A DNA stretch of 35,723 bases from Campylobacteraceae bacterium (GTDB taxonomy: Bacteria > Campylobacterota > Campylobacteria > Campylobacterales > Sulfurovaceae). Numbering within the stretch: the first letter of the stretch is position 1; every line of letters starts with the position of its first letter. The notes under the pieces were generated by a model. The model had not been told where the DNA came from. It saw nothing but the letters and a program-made list of their open reading frames with translations, and ran no database searches. The position numbers were made by a program, and so were the translations under genes. Shown here in pieces: positions 2,360 to 35,669 of this stretch. The DNA lies in the NCBI GenBank assembly GCA_027081355.1, contig JALWKP010000147.1:1-35723 (forward strand). The letters are read 5' to 3'.

Positions 2360-4792
2360 GTGAGTTATAATCCAAAAGATATAGAGAGCAAATGGCAAAA
2401 GATTTGGGAGGAAAACAGGGCGTTTGAGCCAAGCGGCGACCACAGTTTGCCTAAAAAGTATATTTTAAGTATGTTTCCGTATCCAAGCGGGCGCATACAT
2501 ATGGGGCATGTTAGAAATTATGCAATCGGCGACGCGCTGGCGCGCTATTACAGAAAGCAGGGGTTTAATGTTTTGCATCCAATAGGCTGGGATGCTTTTG
2601 GTATGCCTGCGGAGAATGCGGCTATTAAACATAAACTGCACCCTAAAAAGTGGACTTACGAAAATATCGATTATATGAGAGATGAGCTTAAAGCTCTGGG
2701 GCTTTCGTTTTCTAAAGAGCGCGAATTTGCAACCTGCGACCCTCTATATACGAAATGGGAGCAGGAGTTTATTATTAAAATGTATGAAAGCGGGCTTCTT
2801 TATAGAGAGAGCACAACCGTAAACTGGTGCGAAAGCTGCCATACAGTGCTTGCAAACGAGCAGGTAGAAGACGGCAAATGCTGGCGCTGCGATAATGAAG
2901 TGCTGCAAAAAGATATGCCGGGTTACTATTTGGATATTTTAAAATATGCCGAAGAGCTGCTGCAAGATTTAAAAAAGCTAGAGGGCAAATGGCCAAGCCA
3001 GGTTTTAACGATGCAGAGCAACTGGATAGGCAAATCGCAGGGGCTTGAGTTTGAATTTGAGCTATCTAAAGAGTCAAAAGAGAAGCTAGGCGGAAAATTC
3101 GACAAATATACCGTATTTACAACCCGCCCCGATACGATTTTTGGAGTTACTTACTCTGCATTGGCGCCAGAACACCCGATTGTAAAATATCTTTTGGATA
3201 ACAATCTTTTAGAAGCCGAAGTTGCGGAAAAAATCGAAGCAATTTTAAATATGCCTGAAGTTGAGCGCGCAAAACAGGACAAAGAGGGGTATCCGCTTGG
3301 AATTAGCGTTATCCATCCGCTAACAGGCAAAGAGGTGCCTGTGTGGGTTGCGAACTTTGTTTTGGCAAGTTACGGCGGCGGGGCTGTTATGGCGGTTCCT
3401 GCGCATGACGAGAGAGATTTTGAATTTGCAACTAAATACAATTTGCCAATTGTGCGTGTAATTAGCGGCGGCGAGCTGCCGCATACTAGCGAAGGGGTGC
3501 TTGAAAACAGCGGCGAGTTTGACGGAATGCCTAATAAGCAGGCGCAAAAAGAGATTATAAAACTGTTTGAGAGCAAAGGGCTTGGAAAAGGAACAGTAAA
3601 TTACAAACTTCGCAACTGGGGTATAAGCCGCCAGAGATACTGGGGCGCGCCGATACCTTTTGTGCATTGTAAAGTTTGCGGTCTTGTGCCTGAAAAAATC
3701 GAAAACCTGCCGGTAACTTTGCCTGATGATGTGGAGATTACAGGCGAGGGCAACCCGCTAGATACCCACCCGACATGGAAGCATTGCAAATGCCCTAAAT
3801 GCGGTGCAGATGCCATTAGAGAAACCGACACAATGGATACATTTGTCCAAAGCAGCTGGTATCAGCTCCGCTACACTCTTGACCCTGCAAAATGGGAAGA
3901 GAGTGCGCTTGATAAAGATGACTGCAAATACTGGATGAATGTTGATCAGTATATCGGCGGAATCGAGCATGCGATTTTACACCTGCTTTATGCAAGATTC
4001 TTTACAAAAGCGTTGCGCGATTTGGGATACTGCGGTGTGGATGAGCCGTTTGAAAGGCTTTTAACCCAGGGAATGGTGCTAAAAGACGGCGCAAAAATGA
4101 GTAAATCTAAAGGCAATGTGGTTGATCCAGATGCTATTGTTAAAACTTACGGGGCAGATACCGCAAGGCTTTTTATGCTATTTGCAGCGCCGCCTCAAAA
4201 AGAGCTTGAGTGGAATGACAGCGCAGTTGAAGGGGCGTATAGATTTTTAAAGAAACTCTATTCTAAAAAGGATAAAGTTACACACAAAAGCTTGCCTCAA
4301 ATAGAGCACAAATCGCTTAACCAAAAGGAGCAGGAAGCTCGCGCAAAAGTTTACGAAGCGCTGAAAAAAGGTGTTGAGGTTTATGAAAAGACATTTGCTT
4401 TCAATACCCTGATTGCTGCCTGTATGGAGGCGCTAAATTCCCTTGATAAGCAAAATAATGCAGAGGTTTGGAGCGAGGGAATTTACATAATTTTGCACCT
4501 TTTAGAACCAATTGTTCCGCATATTGCTTATGATATGAGCCAAAAATTATTTGACCTTAAGAATTTAGAAGGTAAAATAGAGATTAAAGAAGAGGTTTTT
4601 GTTAAATCGACAGTAACTTATGCGGTTACCATAAGCGGCAAAAAAAGAGCCGAAATTGCAGTAGATGCAAATTTGGGCAAAGATGAAATTATAGCTGCGG
4701 CAAAAGAAGCGGCTGCAAAGTGGCTTCAGGGTAAAGAAATTAAAAAAGAGATATTTGTGCCAAACAAATTGGTAAATTTTGTAGCGATTTAG
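2360..4792 (+). CDS. leuS: Leucyl-tRNA synthetase
   Basis: Class I aminoacyl-tRNA synthetase charging tRNA-Leu, 810 residues from the chosen start. GTG at 2360 is preferred because TTTGGAGAG lies 8-10 bp upstream and the product begins [17 protein letters not shown], the family N-terminus. An earlier ATG at 2330 would sit on the -10 box. Signature HIGH motif is HMGH at about 47-50; KMSKS is present exactly at about 579-583. The CP1 editing domain ([12 protein letters not shown], later [14 protein letters not shown]) lies between about 240 and 350, and two CxxC zinc-like pairs occur (CESCHTVL with CWRCD; CKVCG with CPKCG). First gene of leuS-lipoprotein-folC; 8 bp separate it from the lipoprotein gene. 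Confidence 0.98.
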
Positions 4793-6739: not shown

Positions 6740-6880
6740 GGGTATAGGTTTTGTTTTTACTGTGAAAGTAAGAGAGTGGTTTTTGTATACTGGTGTATTT
6801 GTTATTGGTATACTGGTTATTGGTGTATGTTGGTTAAACTTTTCCAATAACCAATATACTAGTCAACCAGTCAACCAATT
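6719..6880. repeat. Composite array of 7/8-bp repeats between folC and mfd
   Basis: Three blocks fill most of the 207-bp gap. Block one, 6719-6746, is GGGTTGA, GGATTGA, GGGGTGA, GGGTATA and begins inside folC. Block two, about 6785-6836, consists of imperfect repeats of GGTATACT, GGTTATT and GGTGTAT. Block three, 6844-6880, reads CCAATAA, CCAATATA, CTAGTCAA, CCAGTCAA, CCAATT and is broadly the reverse complement of block two, so they could form a hairpin with a short loop near 6837-6843. After it, 6881-6946 holds only AT-rich sequence and the mfd ribosome-binding site. Confidence 0.8.
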
Positions 6881-6946: not shown

Positions 6947-9922
6947 ATGAATCAGGCGGCACTTTTTGAATTTTTGAAAAACAAAAACAGCACTAAAATA
7001 TTGGTTGTGGCAGATAGCAAAGAGGCTAATGAGGCTAAAGCGGTTTATGACTATTTGGATAAAAAGGCGTTTGTTTTGCCAGATATAAGGCTTCTTCCGG
7101 GGGATGATACGCGAAGTTATTTAAGTGATATATCAAAAGCGTTTGCCAATTTAAAAGAGTTTCACAAATATGGCTCGGCTACGCTTATTGCGCCTTTTAG
7201 GACGCTGACTTTCCCGCTGCCAAAGCCTGAGTATTTAAAAAGTTTTACGGTAGAGTTTGGCGCCACTTTGGATATAGAGCAGCTAAAGCAAAAGCTTTAC
7301 TATTGGGGCTACAATTTTGTAGATGTTGTTTCTGCCCCGACAGAAGTGAGCTTTCGCGGCGATATTATCGATATATTTCCAAGCAATTTAGAAGAGGCGG
7401 TGCGTATTTCGCTTTTTGATAACGAAGTGGAAGAGATTAGATATTTTGATGTATCAACCCAAAAGCGCCAAAAAGACGAACTGGATGAAATAGAGATAAC
7501 CCCTGCGTTTTTAGCGCTTGAAAAAGAGCAGTTTGAAGCGCTGCAAAACAGGGTAGAGCGCTGCAGCTACGAGAGTTTTGTAAAAGATGCCGCCTCTTTG
7601 GGGCTTTGGGTGCTTGCCGATTTGGCGGATAATTACTTAAATATTTACGAGCATAAACTTTCGCGCAATTCGCTAAAAGAGGAGATTGCAGAGTTTTACG
7701 AAATTCACAGCGACAATGAACCGCTTATTGGAATAGAAAGTTTTGGCAGCGCGGCAATCCCCGAGCCCAAAGAATACAGAGAGTTAGAAGTCGTAAATTT
7801 AAACGCAATTATCGAGGCTAACAAAGATAAAAAGATAACTATAATCTCTAGAAACGAGAGCCAAATCAGAGCCAGTATGCTGCCGAATTTAGATAGCCTT
7901 AATTATAAATATATTGATGGAATCTTAAATATTGCAAGCAGCAAAGAGCTTATTTTATCGCTAAATAAAAAGCAAAAACAAAAACGCGTTAAAAAGCCGA
8001 CCCTGATTTTGGACGAAATCAAACCCGGCGAATATGTTGTGCACGAAAATTACGGCATAGGTATCTTTAAAGGGATAGAAAAGCGCGAGGTTTTGGGGCG
8101 TTTTAGAGAGTTTGTCGCACTTGAGTATCAGGGCGAAGATATGCTTTATATTCCGGTAGAAAACCTTGAAGTAATCGACAGATATGTCGCTTCAAGCGGT
8201 TCTCTGCCGGCACTGGACAGGCTTGGAAAACAGAGCTTTGCCCGCTTAAAAAGCAAGGTTAAAGAGAAACTTTTTGCAATTGCGCACGAACTTATGGAGA
8301 TAAGCGCAAAGCGGCTTTTGCAAGAGGGAATTAAAATTGTAATCGATAGAAACCTGCAGCAGGCGTTTTTAAACGATGCCGGCTTTATCCACACAGCCGA
8401 CCAGATACGCGCAATCGAGGATATTTTAGACGAAATTAGCAGCGGGCGTATAATGGACAGGCTGCTTAGCGCAGATGTGGGCTTTGGTAAAACCGAAGTG
8501 GCGATGAATGCGCTTTTTGCCGTGGTAAAAAACGGTTATCAGGGGGCGGTTGTTGCGCCTACTACGCTGCTATCTTCGCAGCATTTTAAAAGTTTAAAAG
8601 AGCGGCTGCAGAAGTGGGATATTAAAATTGCAAAACTGGATAGATTTACTTCGGCAAAATCGAAAAAGGCTATTTTGCAAGGGCTGGCAGATGGGACAAT
8701 AGATGTGGTTGTCGGCACCCATGCGCTGCTAAATGCCAAGTTTAAAAAGCTGGCTTTGGTTGTGATTGACGAAGAGCATAAATTCGGGGTAAAACAGAAA
8801 GAAAAACTGAAACAGCTTACAATAAACACCCATCTTTTGAGTATGTCTGCAACCCCGATACCGCGCTCATTAAATATGGCGCTGTCGCAAATTAAGACAT
8901 TCAGCGAAATATTCACCCCGCCTGTGAACCGCAAAGGGGTTAGAACTTTTGTTAAAAATTACGACATTAAAGCGGTTGCCGAAGCGGTGCGAAGAGAGCT
9001 GCGCCGCGGCGGGCAGGTGTTTTATGTATTTAACTCAATCGCTGCAATCGAGCAAAAGCGCGACGAGCTTTTAAAAGAGATGCCAAATTTAAGGTTAAGC
9101 GTGCTGCACTCTAAAATCCCAGCCGCAACAACCGAGCGCGAAATGCTAAAATTTGAGCAGGGGGAATACGACTTGCTTTTAAGCACCTCTATTGTGGAGT
9201 CGGGAATTCACATACCAAATGCCAACACAATAATAATAGACGGAGCCCAAAATTTCGGAATAGCCGACCTACACCAATTGCGCGGACGCGTAGGGCGCGG
9301 CGGGGCAGAGGGTTACTGCTACTACTTTGTCCACGATAAAGAAAAACTAAACGAAAACGCCAAACGCCGCCTGCTGGCACTAGAGAGCCATAGCGACCTT
9401 GGCAGCGGGGCAGTGCTTGCAATGCACGATTTAGAAATTAGAGGGGGCGGAAACCTAATAGGCGAAGCCCAAAGCGGACACATCAAACAAATCGGCTATT
9501 CGCTATACCTAAAAATGCTAGAAGACGCCATAAAAACCTTAAGCGGCAAAACCGAAGAAAGCAAAGGCGTAGAGTTAAAACTGATAGTCGATGCCTACTT
9601 AAGCGACGAATTAATAACCGAAGACCGCTTAAGACTAGAACTCTACCGCCGCCTCTCCCAATGCAAAAACCTGCAAAAGGTTTACGAAATAGAAGAAGAA
9701 ATCGAAGATAGATTTGGCAAACTGGATAAAATGACAAAGCAATTTATAGATTTAATGGCAATAAAAGTGCTGGCAACCGAGAAAAATATTAAAAAAGTCT
9801 CAAGCTACGAACAAAGAGTATTCATAGAATTCAACGACGAAAAAGAACGCGTAATCCTAAACTCCCCAAGCAAAGACAGCGACGACATTATCGCCACGGC
9901 TATGGGGTATTTGAGGGGATAA
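6947..9922 (+). CDS. mfd: Transcription-repair coupling factor
   Basis: DNA translocase that displaces RNA polymerase stalled at lesions and recruits UvrA, 991 residues. This is shorter than the roughly 1150 residues in E. coli, mainly in the N-terminal UvrB-like part. Seen in order: UvrB-homology region with PTEVSFRGDIIDIFP (about 140-155), RNA-polymerase-interacting CarD-like domain PGEYVVHENYGIGIFKGIE (about 360-380), helicase motif I DVGFGKTE (about 510), DEEH box VIDEEHKFGVKQ (about 607), SATPIPRSLNMAL, and RecG-like motif VI LHQLRGRVGRG. The ATG follows AAAAGGCAAAT. Nothing unusual in the motifs. Confidence 0.97.
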   Translation: MNQAALFEFLKNKNSTKILVVADSKEANEAKAVYDYLDKKAFVLPDIRLLPGDDTRSYLSDISKAFANLKEFHKYGSATLIAPFRTLTFPLPKPEYLKSFTVEFGATLDIEQLKQKLYYWGYNFVDVVSAPTEVSFRGDIIDIFPSNLEEAVRISLFDNEVEEIRYFDVSTQKRQKDELDEIEITPAFLALEKEQFEALQNRVERCSYESFVKDAASLGLWVLADLADNYLNIYEHKLSRNSLKEEIAEFYEIHSDNEPLIGIESFGSAAIPEPKEYRELEVVNLNAIIEANKDKKITIISRNESQIRASMLPNLDSLNYKYIDGILNIASSKELILSLNKKQKQKRVKKPTLILDEIKPGEYVVHENYGIGIFKGIEKREVLGRFREFVALEYQGEDMLYIPVENLEVIDRYVASSGSLPALDRLGKQSFARLKSKVKEKLFAIAHELMEISAKRLLQEGIKIVIDRNLQQAFLNDAGFIHTADQIRAIEDILDEISSGRIMDRLLSADVGFGKTEVAMNALFAVVKNGYQGAVVAPTTLLSSQHFKSLKERLQKWDIKIAKLDRFTSAKSKKAILQGLADGTIDVVVGTHALLNAKFKKLALVVIDEEHKFGVKQKEKLKQLTINTHLLSMSATPIPRSLNMALSQIKTFSEIFTPPVNRKGVRTFVKNYDIKAVAEAVRRELRRGGQVFYVFNSIAAIEQKRDELLKEMPNLRLSVLHSKIPAATTEREMLKFEQGEYDLLLSTSIVESGIHIPNANTIIIDGAQNFGIADLHQLRGRVGRGGAEGYCYYFVHDKEKLNENAKRRLLALESHSDLGSGAVLAMHDLEIRGGGNLIGEAQSGHIKQIGYSLYLKMLEDAIKTLSGKTEESKGVELKLIVDAYLSDELITEDRLRLELYRRLSQCKNLQKVYEIEEEIEDRFGKLDKMTKQFIDLMAIKVLATEKNIKKVSSYEQRVFIEFNDEKERVILNSPSKDSDDIIATAMGYLRG

Positions 9923-10794: not shown

Positions 10795-10885
10795 GCTCCC
10801 AAATTGCATTTGGGAGTGTATAGGGCTTATCTGTCAAATAAAGCTTGTAATTGGTGGGCAATTGCTCCCAATATAATTTGAGAGC
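10795..10885. repeat. Twin-hairpin element A (intact copy, 91 bp)
   Basis: Two palindromes 69 bp apart in phase: CTCCCAAAT-TGC-ATTTGGGAG at 10796-10816 and GCTCCCAA-TATAA-TTTGAGAGC at 10864-10885. The 47 bp between them are also conserved in a second copy at 33955-34213 (about 85 percent identity by eye, no gaps once an insertion there is removed). A third, partial head GCTCGCTCCCAAATT lies at 35597-35611. No reading frame. It resembles paired REP-type elements, located in the tail-to-tail gap after the HEPN gene. Confidence 0.8.
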
Positions 10886-33264: not shown

Positions 33265-33396
33265 TTGGTTGACTGGTTACTGGTTACTAGTGACAGAAGC
33301 AGTTATATTTGTTCCTCTAATCAGCCAGTTCACCAGTATACAAGTTAACCAGTATACCAGTCAACAAATACACCAGTTAACCAGTCAACCAACATC
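33255..33396. repeat. 7/8-bp repeat arms between arsP and arsC
   Basis: The left block (33255-33290) is built from TGATTGG, TTGACTGG, TTACTGG, TTACTAG units and starts before the arsP stop. The right block, 33325-33396, is nine consecutive octamers of consensus CCAGTNAA (CCAGTTCA, CCAGTATA, CAAGTTAA, CCAGTATA, CCAGTCAA, CAAATACA, CCAGTTAA, CCAGTCAA, CCAACATC). The blocks are complementary in sense and could pair. The arsC ribosome site AAAGGAG begins on the next base. Confidence 0.82.
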
Positions 33397-33407: not shown

Positions 33408-33815
33408 ATGAAAAAGGTCATTATTTTATGCACAGGCAACAGCTGCCGCTCAATTATTGGCGAAGCGGTTATTAATAAAGAGTTAGGGGCGCAAGGTGTT
33501 AGAGCATTTAGTGCCGGTTCAAGCCCGAGCGGACGGGTTAATACTAACGCTAAAAAGGTTTTAGAAGCAAATGGCGCTTGGGATGAGAGATATTACTCTA
33601 AAACAATCGAAGAGGCAGAGAAAGAAGCGCCGTTTGATTTAGTAGTAACGGTTTGCGACAATGCCAAAGAAGCGTGTCCTATGTTTCCTGGAGCAAAAAA
33701 ACAGATCCATCTAGGTTTTGAAGACCCCGATGGCAAGCCATATGAAGCATTTGAAGAGACTTACAAGCTAATTAAAGACAAACTTGTAAATCTTGTAAAA
33801 AAAGAGTTGTTCTAA
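33408..33815 (+). CDS. arsC: Arsenate reductase, thioredoxin-coupled LMW-phosphatase type
   Basis: 135 residues. P-loop CTGNSCR (C8 to R14, CX5R) starts the protein; the relay cysteines C83 and C90 in VVTVCDNAKEACP correspond to C82 and C89 of the Staphylococcus plasmid enzyme. Reduces arsenate to arsenite using thioredoxin. Low-molecular-weight tyrosine phosphatases share the fold but lack the cysteine pair, so ArsC is the firm call. The stop (TAA) overlaps the ATG of the arsB remnant by one base. Confidence 0.95.
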   Translation: MKKVIILCTGNSCRSIIGEAVINKELGAQGVRAFSAGSSPSGRVNTNAKKVLEANGAWDERYYSKTIEEAEKEAPFDLVVTVCDNAKEACPMFPGAKKQIHLGFEDPDGKPYEAFEETYKLIKDKLVNLVKKELF

Positions 33816-33948
33816 TGTTGGCTTTTGCGCTTTTTTAATTGTTTTGGTGCTGGTAATTACTCAGCCAAGGGGGTTGCAAATTGGCACAACGGCAGTAATT
33901 GGCGCAGCGGCTGTTTGGGCTTTGGGGATTGTCCATATAAATGATGTT
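33815..33948 (+). pseudogene. arsB: arsB remnant (frameshifted and truncated arsenite efflux pump)
   Basis: ATG at 33815 overlaps the arsC stop. It reads MLAFALF then stops; restoring one T to the T6 run at 33831-33836 gives MLAFALFLIVLVLVITQPRG and then LQIGTTAVIGAAAVWALGIV ending HINDV. From memory this matches the first about 45 residues of ArsB (pattern IVIFLLTLIFVIWQPKGLDI in the Staphylococcus protein). Homology ends at about 33948, exactly where twin-hairpin element A' begins. The remaining about 380 codons are absent. A 62-codon open frame at 33844 is only the shifted remnant running into the repeat. Confidence 0.78.
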
Positions 33949-33954
33949 CTGCTC

Positions 33955-34213
33955 GCTCCCAAATTACATTTGAGAGTGTATAGGGCTTTTCTATCAAATC
34001 AAGTTTATAATGAGACCACTGCACAACAGTAAGCCCAAATTACGGCACTATAAAATATCATAAATCAAAAAAATTCCTCTGGGCTTAGCTTTGGTTAGGC
34101 TTTCGAGTAATTTTATTTAATTTCTGATACTTTCTATTACCATACTTTGGAACTAACTATTGTGCAGTGGTCTCATAATTAGTCGGTAAATGCTCCCAAA
34201 TACAATTTTGGAT
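33955..34213. repeat. Twin-hairpin element A' (second copy), interrupted
   Basis: Starts with CTCCCAAAT-TAC-ATTTGAGAG at 33956-33976 and ends with GCTCCCAAATACAATTTTGG and following bases at 34192-34213. Without the 168 bp of the inserted MITE plus one target copy it is 91 bp and aligns to element A (10795-10885) without gaps, the two GCTCCC starts being 69 bp apart in both. Differences are mostly single substitutions (about 11 in 76). It replaces the rest of arsB. From 34214 to 34263 I see no feature. Confidence 0.85.
34011..34175. mobile_element. 165-bp MITE-like insertion, IS5-family-like ends
   Basis: Terminal inverted repeats TGAGACCACTGCACAA (34011-34026 and, inverted, 34160-34175) are perfect for 16 bp and continue weakly. 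Flanking TAA at 34008-34010 and 34176-34178 is a 3-bp target duplication, proved by comparison with the empty element A at 10795-10885. There is no open frame long enough for a transposase, so it is non-autonomous. A 3-bp TNA duplication and GAGACC-type ends suggest mobilisation by an IS5-family transposase encoded elsewhere; the family assignment is inference. Confidence 0.85.
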
Positions 34214-34263: not shown

Positions 34264-35508
34264 CTAAGCAAAATACTCCCAAAAACTAACCACGCGAACC
34301 CCCTCGCTCTCTTCATTTTGATTATATGTTAAAACAATTTTTTCATCCACTTCAAAAGGCAGTTTTTTTAAGCCGTTAAACTCTCGTTTTCTATTTTGAC
34401 TGGTTAATTCATAACAAACTTGTATAGCAATTATTCTGTTCTCTTTTTGGGCAATAAAATCACACTCGAAATTTTTATTATAAAAGTAAACTTCATACCC
34501 CTGTTTTAAAAGTTCAGTAAAAACCAAATTTTCAAGGAGTTTGCCATAGTTAGATAAAAACTTAAAGCTTAAAAGCAAAAAGCCATTATCGCTAAAGTAA
34601 AGCTTTTTCTTTGCATTCTGCTGCTCTTTGAGTGAAAAAGAAAACTGTTTCAACTCGCTGCAAAGATAACACTCTTCGAGATAAGAGACATACTCTTTTG
34701 CACTTTTATCATGAATAGTCACTGCCTTAGCCAAAGAGCTGTATGAATAAAGAGAACCAACATTGCTTAAAAGATAATAACTTAACTCTTTAAAACTTTT
34801 AATATCGCGAATAGCATTGTTTGCTACACCATCTTTAAGCAAAATAGTTTGATAGTAACTCATTAAAATATTACGCTTAAAAGCTTTGTCGCTTTCATAA
34901 ACTTCCACAAAAGAGCCGTATTCCATTATATCATCAACCAATTTTAATACCTTTGGCTGCTCTTTAACAAGCTGCATATAATTAGAAATATTGTTAATTT
35001 TCAGTATCTCTTTAAAACTCAAAGGGTAAACTTGCACAGATAAGAAACGACCTGTTAAAAGAGTGGCTAACTCCCCCTCTAGCAGTGTAGAGTTTGAGCC
35101 TGTAACAAAAATTTTAAGAAAAAGTTCGCTATCGTAAACACTTTTTACATAACGCTCCCACCCCTGAATATTTTGCACTTCGTCTAAAAATAGGTATTTT
35201 ATCTCTTTTTGGGTCATTTTTTGAGCTTCGGTAATAATATCATAAAATTTAGTTGCATCTTTTTGATAAGGGGTAAAAAACGGGTCGTCAAGATTAATAT
35301 ATAGTATCTCTAAAGGGTCAACATTTTTGCAAAGATAATTAATGAGCAATTTAAAAAGAGTCGATTTTCCGCTGCGTCTTATACCTTGAATAACTTGTAT
35401 ATGCTTAGTTTGCAAATTTTGCACAAGAGTTTTAAAAACATCACGCTCATAAAGATTTTTATACGGCTCGCTCCAGTGTCTGTTTTGCGCAAGTATAACA
35501 TTTCTCAT
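34264..35508 (-). CDS. AAA ATPase with DUF4143-type C-terminal domain
   Basis: 414 residues. Walker A GIRRSGKST at 42-50 and Walker B YLFLDEVQN at about 105-113 with an adjoining IQGWERYVKSVYD; FVTGSNSTLL is sensor I. The C-terminal half, with KLYFSDNGFLLL, LVFTELLKQGYEVYFY and ECDFIAQ...IAIQVCYEL, resembles the DUF4143/PD-(D/E)xK-like module common in this family (Asp and Gln/Lys positions partly kept). These widespread proteins have no settled function; links to defence or mobile DNA have been suggested. It lies alone, tail to tail with the arsB remnant. AGGG eight bases before the ATG. Confidence 0.88.
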   Translation of the reverse strand: MRNVILAQNRHWSEPYKNLYERDVFKTLVQNLQTKHIQVIQGIRRSGKSTLFKLLINYLCKNVDPLEILYINLDDPFFTPYQKDATKFYDIITEAQKMTQKEIKYLFLDEVQNIQGWERYVKSVYDSELFLKIFVTGSNSTLLEGELATLLTGRFLSVQVYPLSFKEILKINNISNYMQLVKEQPKVLKLVDDIMEYGSFVEVYESDKAFKRNILMSYYQTILLKDGVANNAIRDIKSFKELSYYLLSNVGSLYSYSSLAKAVTIHDKSAKEYVSYLEECYLCSELKQFSFSLKEQQNAKKKLYFSDNGFLLLSFKFLSNYGKLLENLVFTELLKQGYEVYFYNKNFECDFIAQKENRIIAIQVCYELTSQNRKREFNGLKKLPFEVDEKIVLTYNQNEESEGVRVVSFWEYFA

Positions 35509-35546: not shown

Positions 35547-35596
35547 ATACGAGAAAACTCTATTTTTGCTTAAAATTGCTTATAATTTTCCGCTCC

Positions 35597-35669
35597 GCTC
35601 GCTCCCAAATTGTGAGACTGTGAAAAAACCTTCTTAACCAAACCTTAAGAAGCAATAGTTTCACAGTCT
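35597..35669. repeat. Half of element A fused to a nested inverted repeat
   Basis: The head of element A, GCTCGCTCCCAAATT (35597-35611), is followed by an 11-bp perfect inverted repeat AGACTGTGAAA / TTTCACAGTCT (35615-35625 and 35659-35669). Inside it is a second perfect stem CTTCTTAA-CCAAACC-TTAAGAAG (35630-35652). The 55-bp nested structure differs from the MITE at 34011. No T-run follows, so a terminator is unlikely. 35670-35723 shows only AT-rich sequence to the window edge. Confidence 0.65.

Follow-up and report, generated by a model that had tools for sequence, protein, structure and literature searches.

The window analysed here is the whole 35,723-nt stretch, contig C147 of a draft genome (G000) that comprises 1.86 Mb in 181 contigs. 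At positions 33955-34213, a copy of a repeat that we call repeat A is interrupted by an inserted element whose terminal inverted repeats are perfect. The features of the locus, together with the uninterrupted copy of repeat A elsewhere in the window, are as follows.

33408-33815, plus strand: arsenate reductase-like gene (LMWPc domain), upstream of the arsB remnant
33835-33960, plus strand: arsB remnant, N-terminal part, about 42 of the pump's roughly 425 residues (PF02040, NCBIfam ArsB)
33955-34006, plus strand: left part of repeat A, consisting of the REP-like palindrome GCTCCCAAATTACATTTGAGAG (33955-33976) and spacer
34007-34011, no strand: left copy of the target site duplication ATAAT, 5 bp (from copy comparison)
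34012-34174, no strand: MITE, 163 bp, no ORF, nearly self-complementary throughout (boundaries from 31 copies)
34012-34026, plus strand: left terminal inverted repeat GAGACCACTGCACAA (from the window sequence)
34160-34174, minus strand: right terminal inverted repeat, its reverse complement identical over 15 bp (from the window sequence)
34175-34179, no strand: right copy of the target site duplication ATAAT, 5 bp (from copy comparison)
34180-34213, plus strand: right part of repeat A, with the second GCTCCC at 34192
34264-35508, minus strand: AAA_14/DUF4143 ATPase gene, convergent neighbour
10795-10885, plus strand: uninterrupted, paralogous copy of repeat A, used as the empty-site reference

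The arsB piece is preceded by genes for an ArsR-type regulator, an ArsP-type permease and an ArsC-like reductase. It matches PF02040 just below the 22.2-bit cut-off (E 4.8e-4, 20.0 bits) and NCBIfam ArsB with an E-value of 3.4e-9, and these two matches confirm that it is a truncated arsB, as the initial annotation had proposed. The reading frame of an ATG at 33815 differs from that of the remnant. The arsB piece stops where repeat A starts, so truncation of the pump gene had already happened at or before the REP. The MITE, which arrived afterwards or independently, did not cause it. Downstream of the ArsP-type permease gene lies an AACCAGT-type direct-repeat tract (33331-33392), which recurs at 6849-6878, upstream of a gene at 6947. 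Just two perfect inverted pairs (15 bp or longer, no more than 250 bp apart) are present in the window: one pair forms the MITE ends, and the other, a 15-bp pair, belongs to the low-complexity tract at 33265-33392.

Repeat A was assessed through its palindrome. The sequence GCTCCCAAATTGCATTTGGGAG is found in sister genomes, often paired about 70 bp apart, and in one of them (G004, contig C65) it lies on both sides of a gene for a REP-associated tyrosine transposase (L312:943-1476; NF047646, 105 bits against a cut-off of 80), which identifies repeat A as REP-type. A second, truncated copy of the transposase gene is located just upstream (L312:298-618). A high REP copy number was not found in G000, where we detected four hairpins and only three whole or nearly whole copies. 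A partial REP, GCTCCCAAATTG, is present at 35572-35612 of the window, beyond the ATPase gene as seen from the MITE.

The presence of an insertion follows from the spacing of the GCTCCC motifs. In the interrupted copy, they start 237 bp apart (33955 and 34192), and in the uninterrupted copy 69 bp apart (10795 and 10864), so that removal of 168 bp restores the 69-bp spacing exactly. On this point, our measurements agree with the initial annotation, which had placed the insertion inside a copy of repeat A. It had further taken the window alone to prove the boundaries and the duplication. However, an element of 165 bp with a 3-bp duplication and one of 163 bp with a 5-bp duplication both add up to 168 bp, and thus a single empty site is unable to choose between them. 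Moreover, as these two copies of repeat A are only about 80% identical, the copy at 10795 represents a paralogous empty site rather than the true pre-insertion locus. We found no genuinely orthologous empty site, and the third copy of repeat A (on C120) had diverged too far to refine the paralogous one.

The boundaries were therefore established by comparing 31 two-ended copies of the element, which start with GAGACC, end with GGTCTC and are usually 162-165 bp long. An exact 5-bp duplication flanked 20 of the 31 copies, and 24 had a duplication with at most one mismatch; when flanks were shuffled among copies (2000 trials), the mean number of exact duplications was 2.2 and the maximum nine. 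The exact duplications included ATAAT (five copies), TTTAA, TAAAA and ATTGT (two copies each) as well as others, and the duplication sites were AT-rich. The comparison places the window element at 34012-34174 with ATAAT as its duplication. The alternative has a length of 165 bp, TGAG...CTCA ends and a TAA duplication of 3 bp, like the TNA-targeting IS5 subgroups. In its favour, the window copy does have TAA on both sides of a perfect inverted repeat of 16 bp, and 165 + 3 bp fits the empty site equally well. Yet only 14 of the 31 copies combine a T ahead of GAGACC with an A behind GGTCTC, and copies with TTTAA, TAAAA, AATAA or ACAAA duplications exclude this version; the T...A match in the window copy arises from the sequence of its ATAAT target. 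We consider the 3-bp version refuted by the 31-copy comparison and assign it next to no probability. The ends of the initial annotation (165 bp, 16-bp repeats beginning TGAGACC, TAA duplication) are accordingly off by one base on each side; its terminal repeats are indeed perfect, over 15 bp rather than 16.

The element with 5-bp duplications belongs to a multi-copy family. A genome search of G000 returned about 40 whole or partial copies in both orientations, 92-97% identical to the window MITE, which in the same search matched its own reverse complement with 72-76% identity. The window copy was 97.5% identical to a consensus of 20 copies, and the mean pairwise identity among the 20 best copies was 95%. 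The end sequence GAGACCNYTGCACAA had 51 exact matches in G000, compared to none for the reversed control pattern. No ORF of at least 80 aa was detected inside the MITE. Nearly all compared copies were intergenic, and 19 of the 20 best copies were not spanned by an ORF of at least 150 aa after removal of the element. In sum, the element is short, lacks a transposase gene, possesses terminal inverted repeats and a target duplication, occurs in dispersed copies and has an empty site, the latter paralogous only. With these copies and ends, and the palindrome context in G004, the earlier description of a MITE nested in a REP-like repeat holds. The insertion is real, and the element was mobile in the past.

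Shortened forms of 81 bp (C32:10670-10750, L009), 84 bp (C50:17957-18040, L013) and 47 bp (C50:4805-4851, L012) were found in G000, with both ends intact and a duplication of exactly 5 bp around them; they are either mobile themselves or were shortened after insertion. Several contigs of G000, C135, C86 and C167 among them, end in or near MITE copies, and the family thus probably breaks the assembly. The MITE was absent from the plasmid and phage collections searched; viral contigs had single matches to the end sequence only, which were treated as chance.

Both strands of the MITE fold far more strongly as RNA than shuffled sequence does (-57.3 kcal/mol, z -8.5; other strand -71.3 kcal/mol, z -12.5). 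Such folding, along with the intergenic position of nearly all compared copies, could be read as signs of an immobile element that was spread by recombination: a structural RNA that is conserved, or a hairpin with a regulatory role such as stabilising 3' ends or being processed by RNase III. A precedent for processing is offered by the Correia elements, also MITEs, transcribed copies of which are cleaved by RNase III (PMC10969869). We nevertheless find this account very unlikely. Strong folding is a trivial outcome of a near-palindromic sequence and is by itself no evidence of RNA function, Rfam gave sub-threshold matches only (to plant microRNA hairpin families), and exact duplications of 5 bp, found at unrelated sites, are the hallmark of transposition. 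A hairpin role, moreover, does not compete with mobility, as a MITE could acquire such a role.

The same element is present in the sister genome G008. Elements whose ends are identical or almost identical but whose interiors differ were detected more widely in Campylobacterota (G019, G095, G115, G190, G260, G356, G376, G387 and the named drafts L095, L101 and L102), and several of these have 5-bp duplications. Exact GAGACCNYTGCACAA was found in 13 of 399 genomes drawn from the order, with some of the matches being chance matches inside genes (e.g., G162, G248, G443). In L099, near position 3594 (HM1-3a), a GAGACC-ended MITE is apparently interrupted by an element starting with AAGGGAACCTCTATT.

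We searched for a transposase that could have moved the family. Searches of G000 with PF01609 (DDE_Tnp_1), NF033581 (IS5_4) and a transposase fragment from G387 yielded nothing, in a draft of 181 contigs that may lack repeated ISs. No transposase adjoined the solo ends present in G000 (L018, L025 and others). Hence, of the two things that the initial annotation expected from a whole-genome search for the ends, further copies were recovered and a full IS was not. IS5-type transposases of relatives (L103-L152) were rejected as candidates, their ends being different (e.g., GAACCCTCTGAAAAAC or TATTTATTCAAGGAAC), and an apparent GAGACC end in L126 was dropped as chance because it lay inside an ORF.

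The start of one contig in G387 (C43) encodes the last 66 residues of an IS5_4-type transposase, and a GAGACCACTGCACAA end (TTGTGCAGTGGTCTC) lies 126 bp further on. This partial IS end (L328:1-450) directly adjoins part of a gene resembling the AAA_14/DUF4143 ATPase; that the window MITE has such a neighbour too is probably a coincidence. When used as a query, the G387 fragment matched one plasmid gene, with 77% identity, on Aliarcobacter cibarius pACIB. The gene belongs to an IS5-family IS of 1,529 bp (L363:1310-2838) with ends GAGACCACTGCA/GAGCCCACTGCA and flanks ATATA/ATATA. Its transposase (WP_151029581.1, 421 aa) contains DUF772 and DDE_Tnp_1 domains and scores 179.8 bits against IS5_4 (cut-off 140). 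The ends of the MITE thus match those of the transposase-bearing pACIB IS and of the partial IS in G387. The MITE interior is no deletion product of the pACIB IS; the common part is limited to approximately the outer 12-18 bp.

Outside Campylobacterota, a Neisseria gonorrhoeae record (NZ_CP119140.1) contained GAGACCTTTGCAAAA-ended elements with 5-bp duplications at at least four loci. Database loci were fetched with a Neisseria IS5 transposase sequence that served as a probe only and that a match of 86.5% identity showed to be usable. The record is a 2.17-Mb sequence that is filed as a plasmid and is chromosome-like. Ends of the form (A/G)AGACCTCTGCAAAA occur in a Prevotella IS whose transposase is related. 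The duplication length of 5 bp is common to the MITE, the pACIB IS and the Neisseria elements, and ends, duplication length and transposase class are thus associated with one another across three phyla. One could also invoke a mobilising transposase from a different class whose ends match by coincidence, given that the G000 draft lacks an IS5-type transposase. This is highly improbable, as in both the A. cibarius IS and the G387 fragment these ends occur together with an IS5_4 transposase, and the 5-bp duplication accompanies them in several phyla.

Our observations, namely a multi-copy family with exact ends and a 5-bp duplication, a nested position, and same-ended relatives that carry or adjoin an IS5_4 transposase, lead us to state with high confidence that the insertion is one copy of a 163-bp MITE family, probably moved in trans by an IS5_4-group DDE transposase with a 5-bp duplication into the spacer of a REP. 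As G000 yielded no IS5_4 or DDE_Tnp_1 transposase, we infer from the related elements that a transposase of the IS5_4 class moved the family; the source IS would have been lost, or would be missing from the draft assembly. In the proposed mechanism, the IS5_4 DDE transposase (an NCBIfam name; IS5 group) would cut and join the GAGACC/GGTCTC ends in trans, and staggered cuts of 5 bp at AT-rich sites would create the duplication, here ATAAT. At this locus, the element sits in the spacer of the REP-type palindromic repeat, 3' of arsC and the arsB remnant and opposite the convergent ATPase gene. A broader proposal, which we put forward as a speculation with a low chance of being correct, is that the GAGACC-ended MITEs of Campylobacterota (those of G000, G008, G019, G095, G115, G260, G387 and others), which differ in their interiors and have the ends and the 5-bp duplication in common, are a set of parasites that outlive their IS, would depend for mobilisation on an IS5_4 element brought in by a plasmid such as pACIB, and would form strong hairpins at the 3' ends of genes when transcribed.

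The MITE family in Campylobacterota is apparently undescribed, a review naming none in this phylum (PMC10969869); its kind, an IS5-related MITE, is already known and ordinary. The analysis ties the ends and the 5-bp duplication of the family to a defined IS5 subgroup. It also carries a lesson: one insertion and one paralogous empty site cannot fix boundaries, and the use of many copies shifted both the boundary and the duplication length.

Among known systems, the pACIB IS resembles the MITE in its GAGACCACTGCA-type ends, its AT-rich 5-bp duplication (ATATA) and its Campylobacterota host, and differs from it in its length of 1,529 bp, its 421-aa transposase and an interior that the two do not have in common. 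The 181-bp GAGACCTTTGCAAAA element of N. gonorrhoeae (NZ_CP119140.1, L282:1501-1681; flanks AGGCC/AGGCC) is similar in size and ends, whereas its interior is unrelated; it is probably a known Neisseria AT-rich repeat. The ends of the IS5-family elements ISPg1/ISPg9 and ISNme1 are GAGACCATTGCA and GAGACCTTTGCAAAA, and the Porphyromonas gingivalis MITEs BrickBuilt and MITEPgRS/MITE464 have such ends; for BrickBuilt, a 5-bp AAAAA duplication was reported for one copy, and reported duplication lengths vary (PMC4596501). These systems share with the window MITE the GAGACCATTGCA/GAGACCTTTGCAAAA terminal repeats and, for the MITEs, the lack of a transposase gene, but they reside in Bacteroidota or Neisseria hosts, and BrickBuilt contains internal tandem repeats. 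Finally, the REP/RAYT palindromes resemble repeat A in the GCTCCCAAATTGCATTTGGGAG sequence, the pairing at about 70 bp and, in G004, the location beside the REP-associated tyrosine transposase gene, a likeness that concerns the insertion target and not the MITE.
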